From Saprospiraceae bacterium (GTDB lineage Bacteria; Bacteroidota; Bacteroidia; Chitinophagales; Saprospiraceae): a stretch of 64,000 nt of DNA. The translations under genes were made by a program, and so were the position numbers. The notes beneath the pieces are model-generated. The model made no database searches. It was not told the DNA's origin and saw only the letters and a list, made by a program, of their open reading frames with translations. Positions 55,875-61,725 of this stretch are shown here, piece after piece (position 1 is the first letter of the stretch; every line of letters starts with the position of its first letter). The DNA is taken from NCBI GenBank assembly GCA_013214355.1, contig JABSSL010000007.1:1-64000 (forward strand). Reading direction: 5' to 3'.

Positions 55875-57158
55875 ATGAGATCCTTCATGCTATGGGGAGT
55901 CTTCTGCCTCCTGATCCTATTTTCTACGCCTTCTTTCTCGCCGCCTAATACCATTACCATTGATTTTGAACCCATTGGGAGAATTTGTACTCCACCTAAT
56001 GAAGGCTGTGATCTAACTATTCAGTACAGTTTCGTAGCGCAGTCAGTGGACACGGTAGGTTGGTCTATTTCTTATCGATTCTTTGGTTCACAAGGCATAC
56101 CGATGATCGATCCCTTTGGCTCTCTGGAAGGAGAGTATCCCAATTACGTTGTCAGTGGGACCTATCCCATTGGAGATTATACTTTTCTAGTAGAGGTGAG
56201 CAACGCAGCTGGGGAAGAGTTGCAGGTAGAATTGCCCTTGGAGATTGTTGATTGCGCTGCACCCATTATGACCTGGATTGATACCCTCTATGTGCCTCGG
56301 GAGCCTATTGATCTAGATTTGAACGGTAGGCCGGATTATGTTGGTTTGCGAATTAATGCAGAGGATTTTTCTTCTACGGTTCCTTTTGAAGAATGCTCAG
56401 GGAACCCTTATTTCAGTATAGTAGAGCCTGGTGCAGCGCCTAGGGAATTAGATTCTTTAACTATGATGTGCTGGGATAGCTTTCCTGCTCATTTTCAAGT
56501 ATGGACATGGGATGGAGCTGATAACCCCAGTGCACTACAGCCCGATAGTTCAGTCGGAGGCCCCAATTACACTCGGCGTGAAGTGGTGGTTATTCCCCAA
56601 GGAGGAACACCTTGCGATAGCTTGCCGATTGTAAATGGGCGAGTACGTACGGAAAATGGTAAAGTCTTTTCTGGACTCGGGATCAATGCCGAGGGGGATG
56701 TGCAAATCCAAACGAGCACCAATGAAGCAGGGGAGTATCTATTGAAAGAATTTACCCCTGACGTGACTTATCGATTTACGGTGGATACCATCATGGATAA
56801 TCCAGCCAATGGCGTTTCTATCTTGGATGTATCCCTGCTGGCCCGCCATATCCTGAACATCAATCCCTTAAGCTCTCCCTACAAGATCATTGCTGGTGAT
56901 GTGAATAATTCGGGAAGTTTAACCACCTTAGACATTGTATTAATCCGCTTGATGATCATTGGCGAATTAGCGGAGTTTCCAGGAGGTACGCCCAGTTGGC
57001 GATTTGTACCAAGTGATTATTCCTTCCCACCAGGCACCACTCCTTTTAATCCACCCTTCCGAGAGTATCGTTTACTCAACAATTTGCGTGGCTTCAATGA
57101 GATTGACTTTGTAGCGATTAAAATGGGTGATCTTAACTGTAGTGCTGTGATGCCTTAG
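55875..57158 (+). CDS. Secreted protein with dockerin-type repeat
   Basis: 427 residues; signal peptide LWGVFCLLILFSTPSFS. An Ig-like domain (about 25-125) is followed by a segment with DLDLNGRPDYVGLRI and a carboxypeptidase-regulatory-like beta sandwich (NGRVRTENGKVFSGLGINA near 255). The C-terminus has two Ca-binding dockerin-like repeats (SILDVSLLARHILNINPL; AGDVNNSGSLTTLDIVLIRLMI) and FNEIDFVAIKMGDLNCS. No T9SS sorting domain follows, so its surface attachment, if any, is by another route. Confidence 0.75.
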   Translation: MRSFMLWGVFCLLILFSTPSFSPPNTITIDFEPIGRICTPPNEGCDLTIQYSFVAQSVDTVGWSISYRFFGSQGIPMIDPFGSLEGEYPNYVVSGTYPIGDYTFLVEVSNAAGEELQVELPLEIVDCAAPIMTWIDTLYVPREPIDLDLNGRPDYVGLRINAEDFSSTVPFEECSGNPYFSIVEPGAAPRELDSLTMMCWDSFPAHFQVWTWDGADNPSALQPDSSVGGPNYTRREVVVIPQGGTPCDSLPIVNGRVRTENGKVFSGLGINAEGDVQIQTSTNEAGEYLLKEFTPDVTYRFTVDTIMDNPANGVSILDVSLLARHILNINPLSSPYKIIAGDVNNSGSLTTLDIVLIRLMIIGELAEFPGGTPSWRFVPSDYSFPPGTTPFNPPFREYRLLNNLRGFNEIDFVAIKMGDLNCSAVMP

Positions 57159-57269: not shown

Positions 57270-57300
57270 TTGTTTGCTGTTGAATTAATCTTTAGGTTTG
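57270..57300 (+). promoter_or_regulatory. Promoter of the aromatic amino acid operon
   Basis: TTG (57270-57272), 20 nt, TAGGTTTG (57293-57300) matches the Bacteroidota consensus. Transcription should begin near 57307, about 12 nt before the first leader peptide. Confidence 0.7.
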
Positions 57301-57318
57301 TGCTCAGATAATTGAATT

Positions 57319-57384
57319 ATGAAGACGATTTCCGTTCAACCTTATTTTTACTTTTTTAGCTTTTACTTTTATGGTCGACCATAA
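57319..57384 (+). CDS. Phe/Tyr leader peptide 1
   Basis: 21 codons, ATG 57319 to TAA 57382-57384, giving MKTISVQPYFYFFSFYFYGRP in which 9 of 10 residues in the run from position 9 to 18 are Tyr (4) or Phe (5). Such runs are regulatory codons: ribosomes stall there when charged tRNA-Phe or tRNA-Tyr is short. The early codons (CGTTCAACCT, 57332-57341) are perfectly complementary to 57402-57411. A terminator and antiterminator follow. Confidence 0.85.
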   Translation: MKTISVQPYFYFFSFYFYGRP

Positions 57385-57385
57385 A

Positions 57386-57455
57386 GGGGCTACTGATTTT
57401 AGGTTGAACGTGTCACGATAAAATTTAGAGTCCCGCAAGACGGGACTTTTTTTTT
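57386..57455 (+). terminator. Attenuator terminator 1 with antiterminator segment
   Basis: Terminator: AGTCCCG (57429-57435), CAAGA loop, CGGGACT (57441-57447), then nine T's (57447-57455). The competing segment GGGGCT (57386-57391), directly after the leader stop codon, can pair with AGTCCC (57429-57434, one G-U). A ribosome that reaches the stop codon would cover this segment and so allow termination; a ribosome stalled upstream would leave it free. Confidence 0.85.
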
Positions 57456-57475
57456 GGACTGAATTATAGAAAAGA

Positions 57476-57544
57476 ATGAGCCCTAGCCAAACCACCACCA
57501 AGTTTTACTTTTTTTATTTCTTTTTCTTTTATGAACGATCATAA
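57476..57544 (+). CDS. Phe/Tyr leader peptide 2
   Basis: 22 codons, ATG 57476 to TAA 57542-57544, giving MSPSQTTTKFYFFYFFFFYERS with an uninterrupted run of ten aromatic residues (7 Phe, 3 Tyr, positions 10-19). The 3' part is clearly homologous to leader 1 (TTTTACTTTTTT ... CTTTTATG ... CGA ... CATAA) while the first nine codons differ. Its early GAGCCCT (57478-57484) can pair with AGGGACTC (57544-57551) with one bulge. Confidence 0.85.
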   Translation: MSPSQTTTKFYFFYFFFFYERS

Positions 57545-57608
57545 GGGACTCTTAGCGTTTTTCAACTGATAAAGAACACCAAAGAAGTCCCGCACAAGGG
57601 ACTTTTTT
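57545..57608 (+). terminator. Attenuator terminator 2 with antiterminator segment
   Basis: Terminator: AAGTCCC (57585-57591), GCACAA loop, GGGACTT (57598-57604), T-run 57603-57608. The competing segment GGGACTCTT (57545-57553), right after the second leader stop, is complementary to AAGAAGTCCC (57582-57591) with a single bulge. pheA starts 28 bp after the T-run. Confidence 0.85.
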
Positions 57609-57635
57609 ATTTGTACAGACAAAAATACCTTAGTC

Positions 57636-58523
57636 ATGACACACGCATTGCCTTCCACTGAATCTGATGAGATCTCGCAACGTACTTTGCGAGTAGGTAT
57701 ACAAGGGTATGCCGGGGCTTTTCACGAGATTGCTGCTCGCTTATGTTTCAAAGAGATTGATTTAGACATCGTGCCCGCTCATACTTTTCCAGAACTCGTA
57801 CAAGCTATCGAATCTGGTGAATTTATGGATCTTGGTTTGATGGCAATCGAAAATACTTTGGCCGGTAGCCTCATGGCTAATTACCACCTGCTGAAAGCAT
57901 CTAATCTGAAGATTGTTGGTGAAACCTTCTTACGGATTAAACAAAATCTACTGGTTTTGCCAGGGCAGAAAATTGAAGATCTAGAAGAGGTACACTCCCA
58001 TCCCATCGCCATCGCCCAGTGCCGCAAATACTTCCGACAGTATCCACATATTCGCTTGATTGAAACCGTTGATACAGCGCTAAGTGCAAAACGTGTCCGG
58101 GAAGAAAATCTTACCAAGGTAGGAGCCATCGCGAGTACCTTGGCTGCGGAATTGTATGAGCTGGAGGTCTTGGCTGCGGGAATTGAAACGAACAAAAAGA
58201 ATCATACGCGTTTCTTGGTGCTCCGAAAGGAAGAAGAGGTGAAAAGCTTGGACGGCGCCAATAAAGCCTCCCTTTGTTTTTCTACCGGACACGAACCGGG
58301 AAGCCTTTACAAAGTGTTGGCTGTATTAGCTGCCTACAATGTTAACCTCACCAAGATTCAATCGGCTCCCATCATCGGCAAGCCATGGGAATATATGTTT
58401 TTTGTTGACTTTGTAGCAGAGGGGCAGATTAGCATCAGCCAGGCTATTGAAGCTATTCGACCCTTAACACACGAATTGGATTTGATGGGGGTGTATCAGC
58501 AAGGAGAACATCACGAATACTAA
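57636..58523 (+). CDS. pheA: Prephenate dehydratase
   Basis: 295 residues. Converts prephenate to phenylpyruvate, the committed step to phenylalanine. The periplasmic-binding-like catalytic part starts LRVGIQGYAGAFHEIAA; MAIENTLAGSL near 69 and the catalytic NHTRFLVLRK near 186 are typical. A C-terminal ACT domain (GSLYKVLAVLAAYNVNLTKIQS) gives feedback inhibition by phenylalanine. It has no chorismate mutase domain; in this operon that activity is fused to DAHP synthase. First gene after the double attenuator. Confidence 0.95.
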   Translation: MTHALPSTESDEISQRTLRVGIQGYAGAFHEIAARLCFKEIDLDIVPAHTFPELVQAIESGEFMDLGLMAIENTLAGSLMANYHLLKASNLKIVGETFLRIKQNLLVLPGQKIEDLEEVHSHPIAIAQCRKYFRQYPHIRLIETVDTALSAKRVREENLTKVGAIASTLAAELYELEVLAAGIETNKKNHTRFLVLRKEEEVKSLDGANKASLCFSTGHEPGSLYKVLAVLAAYNVNLTKIQSAPIIGKPWEYMFFVDFVAEGQISISQAIEAIRPLTHELDLMGVYQQGEHHEY

Positions 58524-58571: not shown

Positions 58572-59747
58572 ATGTCGTTAGATCCGATTATACAGGCTGC
58601 AAGTAGAATGGGGGAAGTAAAAGAATACTACTTTTCCCGCAAGCTCAGAGAGATAGCTCAGATGCGAGCCGAGGGCAAAACAATCCTCAATTTAGGGATT
58701 GGTAGCCCAGACTTGCCTCCTTCTATGGAGGTAATTGAAGAACTACAAGCACATAGCGTTATGCCTACTAGCCATGGTTATCAAGGATATGTAGGTATTC
58801 CAGAGTTGAGATCGGCCTTTGCTGATTGGTATCAGAAGTGGTTTAAGGTCAGCTTGGATCCCAATGGTGAGATCCTACCCTTGATTGGTTCCAAGGAGGG
58901 GATTATGCATATTTCCATGACCTATTTGGAGCCGGGTGATGAGGTGTTAGTGCCCAATCCGGGCTACCCAGCTTACCGGGCAGTGGCTAATCTTACTGGC
59001 GCAACGATTCGTGAGTATAAATTGGAAGAATCCTTGGGCTGGACAGTAGATCTAGATGCCCTAGCCAAGACGGACCTTAGTAAGGTGAAGCTCATGTGGG
59101 TTAATTATCCTAATATGCCGACTGGTGCACAGGGACAACAAGCTTACTACGAGCGACTGGTAAAATTTGCCAAGGAACATAAGTTGTTGATCTGTAACGA
59201 CAATCCCTATGGGTTTATCTTGAATGATGAGCCCATGAGTTTACTCAGTGTGCCCGGAGCGAAGGATGTTGTGCTGGAATTGAATTCTTTGTCTAAGTCG
59301 CACAATATGGCTGGCTGGCGGATCGGGATGTTGGCAGGAGCGGCTCCTTATCTAAGCACCATACTACGATTCAAAAGTAATATGGATTCTGGTATGTTCC
59401 GACCTTTGCAGTTAGCAGCTGTCAAGGCCCTACAGCAGGACGGGGACTGGTATACATCTATCAATAGTATTTATCGAGAGCGACGAGACCGTGTATATGA
59501 TCTGTTGAATCTTCTAGCTTGTACCTACGATGAAAATCAAGTGGGCATGTTTGTCTGGGCGAAGATCCCTGATCATTATGAGTCTGGCTTCGCCCTATCC
59601 GATGCTGTACTCTATCAGGCGAATGTCTTTATTACCCCTGGTGGGATTTTTGGCAGTCAAGGTGAAAACTATATAAGAGTTTCTCTATGTAGTGAAACTG
59701 CTGTTTTTGAGGAGGCTATCCGCAAGATTGAAAATGTGAAATTATGA
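58572..59747 (+). CDS. Class I/II aminotransferase of the aromatic operon
   Basis: 391 residues, fold type I PLP enzyme. ILNLGIGSPDLPPS near 37, NPGYPAYRAV near 129, YPNMPTGAQG near 178 and the PLP lysine in LNSLSKSHNMAGWRIG near 240. Placed between pheA and tyrA and overlapping tyrA by 4 bp, it very likely transaminates phenylpyruvate and 4-hydroxyphenylpyruvate (or prephenate) to the amino acids. Specificity is inferred from context. Confidence 0.9.
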   Translation: MSLDPIIQAASRMGEVKEYYFSRKLREIAQMRAEGKTILNLGIGSPDLPPSMEVIEELQAHSVMPTSHGYQGYVGIPELRSAFADWYQKWFKVSLDPNGEILPLIGSKEGIMHISMTYLEPGDEVLVPNPGYPAYRAVANLTGATIREYKLEESLGWTVDLDALAKTDLSKVKLMWVNYPNMPTGAQGQQAYYERLVKFAKEHKLLICNDNPYGFILNDEPMSLLSVPGAKDVVLELNSLSKSHNMAGWRIGMLAGAAPYLSTILRFKSNMDSGMFRPLQLAAVKALQQDGDWYTSINSIYRERRDRVYDLLNLLACTYDENQVGMFVWAKIPDHYESGFALSDAVLYQANVFITPGGIFGSQGENYIRVSLCSETAVFEEAIRKIENVKL

Positions 59748-60589
59748 CGATTGCAATTGTAGGGATTGGACTTATTGGCGGGTCACTTGCTATTACCCTA
59801 AAAGAAAATGGTTTTGCTACAAAAGTACTAGGTGTCGATATTCGCCCCGATAATATAGATAAAGCGATACGGAGAAGATTGATTGATGAGGAGAGAAGCT
59901 TGGAAGAAGCCATTGAGGAATCAGATATCATTGTTTTGGCAACTCCTGTAGATGCGATGCTCAACCTTTTACCGATTATCCTAGACCGTGTCGATAAACA
60001 AGTTATTATCGATGTGGGGTCCACAAAGGCACAATTGTTGGATAAAGTGAGGAACCATCCCAAACGAGGTCGGTACGTCGCTACCCACCCAATGGCCGGT
60101 ACAGAATACAGCGGACCAGAGGCCGCCATTCCGAACTTGTTTGATGAGAAATGTACCGTTTTGGTGGATGTAGATGATAGTGATGCAGATGCAGTAGAAC
60201 TGACTCGGCGTCTATTTGATTCCATTCCCATGCGCCAGGTAAATTTGGATCGCCAATCGCACGATATTCATACGGCTTACGTCTCCCACATTTCCCACAT
60301 CAGCTCCTTTGCCTTGGCATTGACGGTGTTGGAGAAGGAGCAAGATGAGGACCGGATATTTGAGTTGGCAAGTGGTGGTTTTAGTTCCACCGTTCGGTTG
60401 GCAAAAAGTTCGCCGGATATGTGGATACCGATATTTCGGCAGAATAGAGATAATGTACTAGATGTCTTGGATGAGCATATCAATCAATTGGCTCGATTTC
60501 GGAGCCTATTGATCAAGAAAGATTTTGACACTTTTTATAAATTAATAGAAGAATCTAATCAAATACGTAAAATCTTGAGTAGCGACTAA
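59744..60589 (+). CDS. tyrA: Prephenate dehydrogenase
   Basis: 281 residues. Oxidises prephenate to 4-hydroxyphenylpyruvate for tyrosine. The NAD-binding start is TIAIVGIGLIGGSLAITL; ATHPMAGTEYSGPEAA near 108 and SHISHISSFALAL near 182 (catalytic His region) follow the family. No ACT domain is present. ATGA overlap with the preceding gene indicates coupled translation. Confidence 0.95.
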   Translation: MTIAIVGIGLIGGSLAITLKENGFATKVLGVDIRPDNIDKAIRRRLIDEERSLEEAIEESDIIVLATPVDAMLNLLPIILDRVDKQVIIDVGSTKAQLLDKVRNHPKRGRYVATHPMAGTEYSGPEAAIPNLFDEKCTVLVDVDDSDADAVELTRRLFDSIPMRQVNLDRQSHDIHTAYVSHISHISSFALALTVLEKEQDEDRIFELASGGFSSTVRLAKSSPDMWIPIFRQNRDNVLDVLDEHINQLARFRSLLIKKDFDTFYKLIEESNQIRKILSSD

Positions 60590-60636: not shown

Positions 60637-61725
60637 ATGGAAATGAATATTAAACCAATTCTAGGGCAAGCTAAGAAAACGCCGATTGTGATCGCTGGCC
60701 CTTGTAGTGCGGAGACAGAAGAGCAAGTACTAGCTACAGCTCATGGTTTGAAAGATGCCGGTATCGATTTATTCAGAGCGGGTATCTGGAAACCTAGAAC
60801 ACGCCCAGGTTCTTTCGAAGGAGTAGGAACCGAAGGTCTTAGCTGGTTGAAAAAAGTGAAAGAGGAGACGGGCATGAAGGTGACTACTGAAGTTGCCAAT
60901 ACACAGCACGTTTTCGAAGCCCTGAAATATGGCGTTGATGTAGTTTGGTTAGGCGCTAGAACTACGGTTAATCCGTTTTCTGTTCAGGAAGTTGCTGATG
61001 CCTTGAAAGGGGTTAAGATTCCTGTGATGATCAAAAATCCAATCAATCCTGACTTCAAATTGTGGGTGGGAGCGATTGAAAGAATCTACAAGGCCGGTAT
61101 CGAAAATATCGCTGTAATCCACCGTGGCTTTTCTTACCATGGACAAACAAAATACAGAAACGTACCACGCTGGCAAATTCCTATTGACCTAAAGCGTCAA
61201 TTTCCAAACTTGGAAATCATTTGTGACAATAGCCATATTTGCGGTCGGAGAGATACATTGTTTGATGTAGCTCAAAAGGCAATGGATTTGGACTTCGACG
61301 GTATTATGACCGAAGTACACCCAACTCCTGATGATGCATGGAGTGATGCCAAACAACAGATCACGCCCAATCAATTCATCGATCTAAAGGATCGACTCAA
61401 GCAGAGAGAAGCTTCTACCGATGATATCGAATTCTGGGAGCACATGGATCATTTGCGCCATGAGATTGATGAGATAGACGAGGAGATCATGAACATGATG
61501 GTGAAGAGAATGCAATTGTCGGATAGCATTGGTCAATACAAAAAGCGCAATAACATTGCGGTTCTTCAGCCAGACCGTTGGAATGAAATCCTAGAACGTG
61601 CAGTAGCACAAGGAAAGGCAAAGGACTTGAGCCCACAGTTTGTGGAGGCACTGCTGAAAGCGGTTCACCAGGAATCTATCAACCGCCAGGTAGCCATCCT
61701 AGAAAACAAAAAGGCACAGGCCTAA
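60637..61725 (+). CDS. Bifunctional DAHP synthase / chorismate mutase
   Basis: 362 residues. The N-terminal type I-beta DAHP synthase (about 1-262) shows IVIAGPCSAETEEQV, AGIWKPRTRPGSFEGVG, WLGARTT and CDNSHICGRRD. The C-terminal AroQ-type chorismate mutase (about 270-355) has HEIDEIDEEIMNMMVKRMQLSDSIGQYKKRNN. It thus provides the first step of the shikimate pathway and the branch step to prephenate used by PheA and TyrA in the same operon. Last gene of the operon. Confidence 0.95.
   Translation: MEMNIKPILGQAKKTPIVIAGPCSAETEEQVLATAHGLKDAGIDLFRAGIWKPRTRPGSFEGVGTEGLSWLKKVKEETGMKVTTEVANTQHVFEALKYGVDVVWLGARTTVNPFSVQEVADALKGVKIPVMIKNPINPDFKLWVGAIERIYKAGIENIAVIHRGFSYHGQTKYRNVPRWQIPIDLKRQFPNLEIICDNSHICGRRDTLFDVAQKAMDLDFDGIMTEVHPTPDDAWSDAKQQITPNQFIDLKDRLKQREASTDDIEFWEHMDHLRHEIDEIDEEIMNMMVKRMQLSDSIGQYKKRNNIAVLQPDRWNEILERAVAQGKAKDLSPQFVEALLKAVHQESINRQVAILENKKAQA

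Follow-up and report, generated by a model that had tools for sequence, protein, structure and literature searches.

Two predicted phenylalanine/tyrosine attenuators in series upstream of an aromatic amino acid operon in Saprospiraceae

In the enterobacterial pheA (pheL) and trp leaders, a short peptide rich in the end product of the pathway is encoded before the biosynthetic gene, together with competing anti-antiterminator, antiterminator and terminator helices. Leader-peptide attenuation of this kind has been documented mostly from Proteobacteria and Actinobacteria. According to the accessible part of a 2010 survey, no case had been shown outside these two groups before the survey's own Firmicutes example, the atypical ermC aside; the same text describes the rimP-leader of some Gammaproteobacteria, in which two premature terminators stand in tandem before one gene (PMC2965389). 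In the mgtCBR leader of Salmonella, as presented in the available text, two leader ORFs read different signals (ATP and proline) and act additively, and this leader is contrasted with one having two intrinsic terminators (PMC3641672). Tandem T-boxes and riboswitches are described, in the portion available, as serial sensors of the same ligand with their own platforms, for which a pseudo-cooperative response is expected (PMC12452182).

For Bacteroidota, the accessible text of one study reports that pheA of Flavobacteriaceae is preceded by a structured 5' element and that there are strong clues to leader-peptide attenuation before amino-acid operons (PMC9723704), and the available part of another mentions leader-like small ORFs (PMC7366714). 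Beyond these two sources, nothing on Bacteroidota attenuators appeared in the partly accessible literature that we searched. That literature, with subscription papers mostly outside it, also offered no example of a biosynthetic operon preceded by two leader-peptide attenuators for the same signal, and no such tandem from Saprospiraceae. Here, we describe a locus at which two ribosome-mediated attenuators of the phe/trp/his kind very probably lie one after the other on a single transcript and check the same signal before an aromatic operon, a reading based on comparative sequence analysis and folding models.

Organization of the locus and its two modules

The window (the whole 64-kb stretch of DNA that was analysed) belongs to a genome of 11.2 Mb, and the closest relatives that carry a name are Saprospiraceae and uncultured Lewinella MAGs. 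Its + strand carries, in 5' to 3' order, a promoter, leader 1, terminator 1, leader 2, terminator 2 and, from 57636, pheA. The operon consists of pheA, encoding prephenate dehydratase with an ACT domain (57636..58523; Pfam PF00800, E 4.4e-53, and PF01842), a class I/II aminotransferase (58572..59747; PF00155), tyrA, encoding prephenate dehydrogenase (59744..60589; PF02153 and PF20463, and NF006307 above its cut-off), and a DAHP synthase fused to chorismate mutase type II (60637..61725; PF00793 and PF01817), all on the + strand. The gene upstream of the promoter (55875-57158) has a weak resemblance to dockerin over one stretch, where PF00404 scores below its cut-off.

The earlier note on this DNA had placed a consensus promoter ahead of the leaders, which is borne out as a motif match of the Bacteroidota type, TTG-N20-TAGGTTTG (57270..57300, + strand). 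The Bacteroidota consensus for the -33/-7 elements is TTTG/TANNTTTG, and the accessible part of the same source gives a -7 element revised to TAHHTTTG for F. johnsoniae, which the window's TAGGTTTG does not fit (PMC6847099). Many relatives have TAGGTTTG or TACGTTTG as their -7 element. Of 43 deduplicated tandem loci, 41 have the promoter motif upstream of module 1; among shuffled upstream segments, 28/2150 contain it. Module 2 could in principle be the leader of a second, internal promoter instead of a serial second stage. We found nothing in its favour and regard it as highly improbable: a Bacteroidota-type motif lies between the modules in 0/43 of the same loci, as does the -7 element alone (0/43), and in the window just 20 bases (57456-57475) separate the T-run of terminator 1 from leader 2. 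With the motif before module 1 and none between the modules, the terminators are therefore expected to act in series, and a transcript starting from the promoter at 57270-57300 must pass both of them to reach pheA. The arrangement thus appears to be one of two complete sensors of the same signal, each with its own terminator, on one transcript.

Both leaders agree with their first description. Leader peptide 1 (MKTISVQPYFYFFSFYFYGRP*, 21 codons, 57319..57384, + strand), a reading frame with similar leaders in relatives, has a run at 57343-57372 of five Phe, four Tyr and one Ser codons (9/10 Phe/Tyr). The reading frame of leader peptide 2 (MSPSQTTTKFYFFYFFFFYERS*, 22 codons, 57476..57544, + strand) has a run at 57503-57532 of seven Phe and three Tyr codons (10/10). 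In both modules of the window, a short ORF thus encodes a leader whose codon run specifies the product of the operon. The terminators noted after each leader were also recovered, as intrinsic terminator 1 (57427..57455, with its stem at 57427-57449 and a T-run) and intrinsic terminator 2 (57582..57612, with its stem at 57582-57607 and a T-rich tail), both on the + strand. A generic terminator scan of this strand listed the first and missed the second.

To assess chance occurrence, we required at least six aromatic codons in ten close to a stop, with a terminator downstream. This combination was found twice on the + strand of the 64 kb, both times at this locus, and was absent from the - strand of the window and from 20 mononucleotide shuffles of it (one strand each). 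Relative to dinucleotide shuffles, the leader-plus-terminator segments fold with z scores of -2.25 to -5.42 and the post-run fragments with z scores of -3.0 and -4.8. The window has no match to an Rfam family at the gathering threshold.

Competing helices and the predicted switch

In each module, the final codons of the control run serve as region 1, the stop codon marks the start of region 2, and regions 3 and 4 form the terminator. A hairpin that we call P2, absent from the earlier description, pairs the last Phe-Tyr codons of module 1 with the stop codon and the following GG (57366..57387, + strand; 57366-57374 with 57379-57387; CTTTTATGG-NNNN-CCATAAAGG). Its counterpart in module 2, identified by pairing and by alignment counts, spans 57525..57548 (57525-57534 with 57539-57548, + strand). 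Overlapping P2 are the antiterminator strands, GGGGCT in module 1 (57386..57391, + strand), which pairs with 57429-57434 and shows covariation, and GGGACT in module 2 (57545..57550, + strand), which pairs with 57586-57591. Further upstream in module 1, the codons directly before the run form a 10-bp helix, P1, between 57333..57342 and 57401..57410 (+ strand); this pairing had been proposed before and is supported, with both strands corrected by one base.

We aligned 42 well-formed modules, leaving out poorly fitting modules and minus-strand loci (alignment A1). The antiterminator helix is paired in 83.4% of cells, 6/9 of its pairs vary on both sides, and its covariation score (0.289, against a shuffled mean of 0.198) was reached by 0/500 shuffles and exceeds that of all slides; its outer three pairs are unpaired in 12-22 of the 42 modules. 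P2 is paired in 96.2% of cells and varies on both sides at 4/9 pairs; for P2 and the terminator together, 96.1% of cells are paired and 10/19 pairs vary on both sides. Compensating antiterminator examples are GGAGCT/AGCTCC (L036 module 1), GGAACT/AGTTCC (L012 module 1) and GGGACT/AGTCCC (module 2 of the window).

These shuffles leave the relatedness of the sequences in, and a second line of evidence came from comparing the pairing of each strand with its own partner and with partners from other species, in 35 deduplicated tandem loci outside family f20. The antiterminator strand prefers its own terminator in 29/35 loci for module 1 (p=1.6e-5) and in 25/35 for module 2 (p=2.6e-5). The proposal that the bases just past the leader stop pair with the 5' arm of the terminator is thus supported both by covariation and by own-partner fit. 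For P1, own partners score 16.8 against 12.4 in module 1 (better in 30/35, p=1.4e-7) and 11.5 against 10.2 in module 2 (better in 24/35, p=0.01), which argues for P1 in module 1 and weakly for it in module 2. Within the tandem-bearing genus of f20 (g146; 12 loci), neither an own-partner preference of P1 (module 1 p=0.51, module 2 p=0.87) nor a significant antiterminator fit in module 2 (p=0.27) was seen. The pairing 57478-57484/57544-57551 that had been suggested for leader 2 amounts to four uninterrupted pairs (CCCT/AGGG) and three more beyond a bulge; over the 35 tandem loci it scores 10.7 with its own and 10.4 with other species' partners (p=0.31), and we rejected it as a conserved element.

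Taken together, each module is predicted to hold an intrinsic terminator with a competing antiterminator, and an anti-antiterminator that uses the control codons is present as P2, joined in module 1 by P1. That the leaders might act by some other route (a T-box, binding of a protein to the leader, or trans-acting peptides) has nothing specific in its favour and is scarcely credible: the window is without an Rfam family at the gathering threshold, the pattern of covariation is that of switch helices linked to the stop codon, and the letters before the run vary widely, the kept tail (often GQP) being explained by P2.

The signal read by these attenuators would be the charging of tRNA-Phe and tRNA-Tyr, sensed while RNA polymerase is still upstream of the common aromatic operon. 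When Phe and Tyr are ample, the ribosome would reach the stop codon and cover the antiterminator strand, and the terminator would form; once the ribosome has left, P2 (with P1 in module 1) could hold the antiterminator strand. When either is scarce, since Phe and Tyr codons are mixed throughout both runs, either shortage could stall either ribosome in its run, and the free antiterminator strand would pair with the 5' arm of the terminator. A polymerase that had passed module 1 would then meet a second, separately translated copy. We infer both the termination and the ribosome stalling in the cell. By this analysis readthrough probabilities should multiply, which would give a tighter shut-off or lower leak and a steeper response, the behaviour expected of same-ligand riboswitches in tandem (PMC12452182), and the sharper response that the earlier note had anticipated would fit two same-signal stages in series.

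The same note had read the pair as two inputs, with leader 2 weighted to Phe. Such a gate, in which the leaders weigh Phe and Tyr differently and the operon answers two signals, would agree with the ratios of the window (5:4 and 7:3 Phe:Tyr), which are a trait of its close relatives and do not extend beyond its genus: in 41 tandem loci outside f20 (not deduplicated), the mean Phe fractions of modules 1 and 2 are 0.59 and 0.60 (p=0.46), and module 2 has the higher fraction in 23 loci, the lower in 14 and an equal one in 4. A Phe-weighted leader 2 was accordingly rejected as a conserved trait. The g146 loci offer some support for two inputs, with a Trp codon in module 1 in 12/12 and in module 2 in 0/12, and with Phe fractions of 0.53 and 0.59 (p=0.03, for 12 related loci that become 8 after deduplication). 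Overall we consider a two-input gate unlikely; the lack of a Phe:Tyr difference between the modules outside f20 speaks for two checks of one signal, and codon content there gives the same Phe/Tyr mix in both leaders, which would set the pair apart from a tandem of the mgtCBR kind reading different signals. The Trp codon of g146 module 1 lies near the end of the run (L138, L141, L155, L161, L168 and others; e.g., FGYFYGFYFFWYQ), and might mean that all three aromatic amino acids are read there.

We modelled the switch for the 35 loci by masking the ribosome footprint codon by codon, cutting the RNA before the 3' arm of the terminator and computing partition functions. When the ribosome stands 5-9 codons ahead of the stop, the mean antiterminator probability exceeds 0.5 in 34/35 first and 22/35 second modules (13/35 second modules fail), and with the ribosome on the stop codon it does so in 2/35 first and 2/35 second modules, figures into which the model partly builds the switch because region 2 sits at the stop codon. 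In the f20 genus, first modules pass in 8/8 and second modules in 0/8, where the chosen region 2 does not fit module 2 because the leader continues past the likely pairing strand. For naked RNA in the window's genus, the model gives the antiterminator 0.00-0.12 in module 1 and 0.97-0.99 in module 2; as a general trait this contrast was rejected (p=0.58 over 35 loci).

The weaker modelled antitermination of second modules, together with the fact that some lineages keep a single module, would be expected if only one copy worked as a switch and the other were a decaying or redundant duplicate. Against this, both copies keep the leader, P2, the antiterminator complementarity and the terminator across genera, and we think it quite unlikely. 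Two working attenuators in series remain our preferred reading.

Distribution and history of the tandem

The pheA gene was found in 242/396 Chitinophagales genomes, and 93 upstream regions were chosen among the matches listed. With a strict detector, 83/93 of these loci have at least one module before pheA and 17 have two (controls: shuffles 0/465, reverse strands 1/93). A relaxed detector applied to 162 loci, a set that includes near-duplicates and 16 loci chosen by RNA-model match, found two modules in 59, one in 89 and none in 14, among which L028 and L043 had only 117 and 99 upstream bases (controls: shuffles 0/486, reverse strands 1/162). Module counts differ between the scans because the revised detectors used different thresholds. 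Twenty loci, mostly from other phyla (L060-L079), had no module, and these and six duplicates were left out of later counts. One f12 match (L167) is ~700 bases away from pheA and may be associated with a different gene.

Two modules were found in many Saprospiraceae. Cultured relatives that have both include Flavilitoribacter nigricans (L034) and Phaeodactylibacter xiamenensis (L047). They also occur in genus g146 of f20, in 14/14 sampled genomes with the relaxed and 12/14 with the strict detector, and in 0/42 of the other f20 genomes sampled. At class level outside the order, a single module is present at 15/20 fetched loci and two modules at none, and 30 further phylum-wide loci, many of them from one family, have no module. 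Since there are lineages in which one module or none was detected, two are not essential. The check on relatives proposed earlier thus came out positively, with conserved leader runs and alternate pairings and with both one- and two-module loci, and conservation and covariation together lend strong support both to ribosome-mediated attenuation and to the serial arrangement.

Genomes were also searched with an RNA model (R1). Within its own genome R1 matches only the two window copies at E <1e-11, with the next match at 0.29. It matches 172/396 genomes of the order (E<=0.01) and 31/296 genomes of the class, the own genome included (E<=0.001), and among the class genomes no close same-strand pair was found other than that of the window.

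The nearest neighbour of module 1 copies is another module 1 in 21/21 cases, and that of module 2 copies is a module 2 in 14/17 and a module 1 in three. In no case (0/38) is a module closest to the partner at its own locus, which means that the pairs did not arise by recent duplication genome by genome. Mean identity is 0.686 between the two modules of one locus, 0.691 among first modules, 0.686 among second modules, and 0.664 between first and second modules of different loci. A quickly built PheA tree has 106 rows, 97 of them labelled, and long branches make parts of it unsure; on this tree the two/one label changes 15 times against 32.5 in shuffles (0/500 as low), with at least six of the changes on starred branches. 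Seven g146 rows adjoin 14 single-module f20 rows, a placement that suggests a separate origin of the tandem in g146; the alternative is an old presence followed by losses.

In module 2 of L046, L047 and L049 the stop codon is further downstream (tail GYPPKGLPLSACA), and the pairing strand may be in frame. Leader peptides of f20 loci (L124, L130, L151, L165 and others) share end tails such as RPGMLLL, which may reflect an in-frame antiterminator strand instead of a function of the peptide.

Other amino-acid operons have comparable leaders. In the genome that carries the window, trpE, hisG and one ilvD are each preceded by one leader of fitting codons (Trp, L247 on C170; His, L259 on C112; Ile/Val, L265 on C90), and leader-peptide attenuation seems usual there. 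Among scanned loci, a leader precedes trpE in 12/16 (two in none; L249 is doubtful by eye), hisG in 9/12 (two in one, L253) and ilvD-family genes in 7/18 (two in one, L272); shuffle controls gave 0/160, 0/120 and 0/180, and reverse strands 0, 0 and 1, respectively. The tandem His leaders (G018 hisG) and tandem Ile/Val leaders (G006 ilvD) lie on the minus strand of their loci, each leader with its own terminator. No promoter motif was found in the 900 bases upstream of either, so a one-transcript series is only putative at these two loci.

Significance and comparison with known systems

A single module of this locus is ordinary attenuation of a known kind, little documented in Bacteroidota. In the Chitinophagales sampled here, such attenuators frequently precede pheA, and the window's own genome has trp, his and ilv leaders besides. 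What seems unusual is a kept series of two switches for one signal, common to many relatives. We lean, by a small measure, toward a broader view in which same-signal attenuators in series recur in Chitinophagales, with separate pheA origins in Saprospiraceae and a single genus of another family and further cases at his and ilv, and form a protein-free, multi-stage filter that would lower leak and steepen the response. Lineages with one and two copies provide a natural comparison, which makes the gain from a second stage (leak, range and steepness) directly testable.

As in enterobacterial pheA (pheL) and trp, a leader rich in codons for the product and a set of competing helices lie upstream of a biosynthetic gene. 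Here, unlike in those leaders, there are two modules in series, the run mixes Phe and Tyr before a joint pheA-tyrA-DAHPS operon, region 1 consists of the last Phe-Tyr codons with region 2 starting at the stop codon, and there is no Rfam match at the gathering threshold. The pheA element of Flavobacteriaceae concerns the same phylum and gene, and no tandem is named for it in the accessible text (PMC9723704); among three Flavobacteriales loci retrieved by name, one module is present in L057 and in L059, and L058 has none. For the rimP-leader, the available text names no leader peptide run, unlike the arrangement described here (PMC2965389). Tandem T-boxes and riboswitches, as described in the portion available, differ in that here a translating ribosome would do the sensing, with no aptamer (PMC12452182). 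Finally, the locus resembles mgtCBR, as far as the accessible text describes it, in having two leader ORFs in one leader RNA that act on transcription of one operon, and differs from it in that both leaders would read Phe/Tyr, each with its own intrinsic terminator (PMC3641672).
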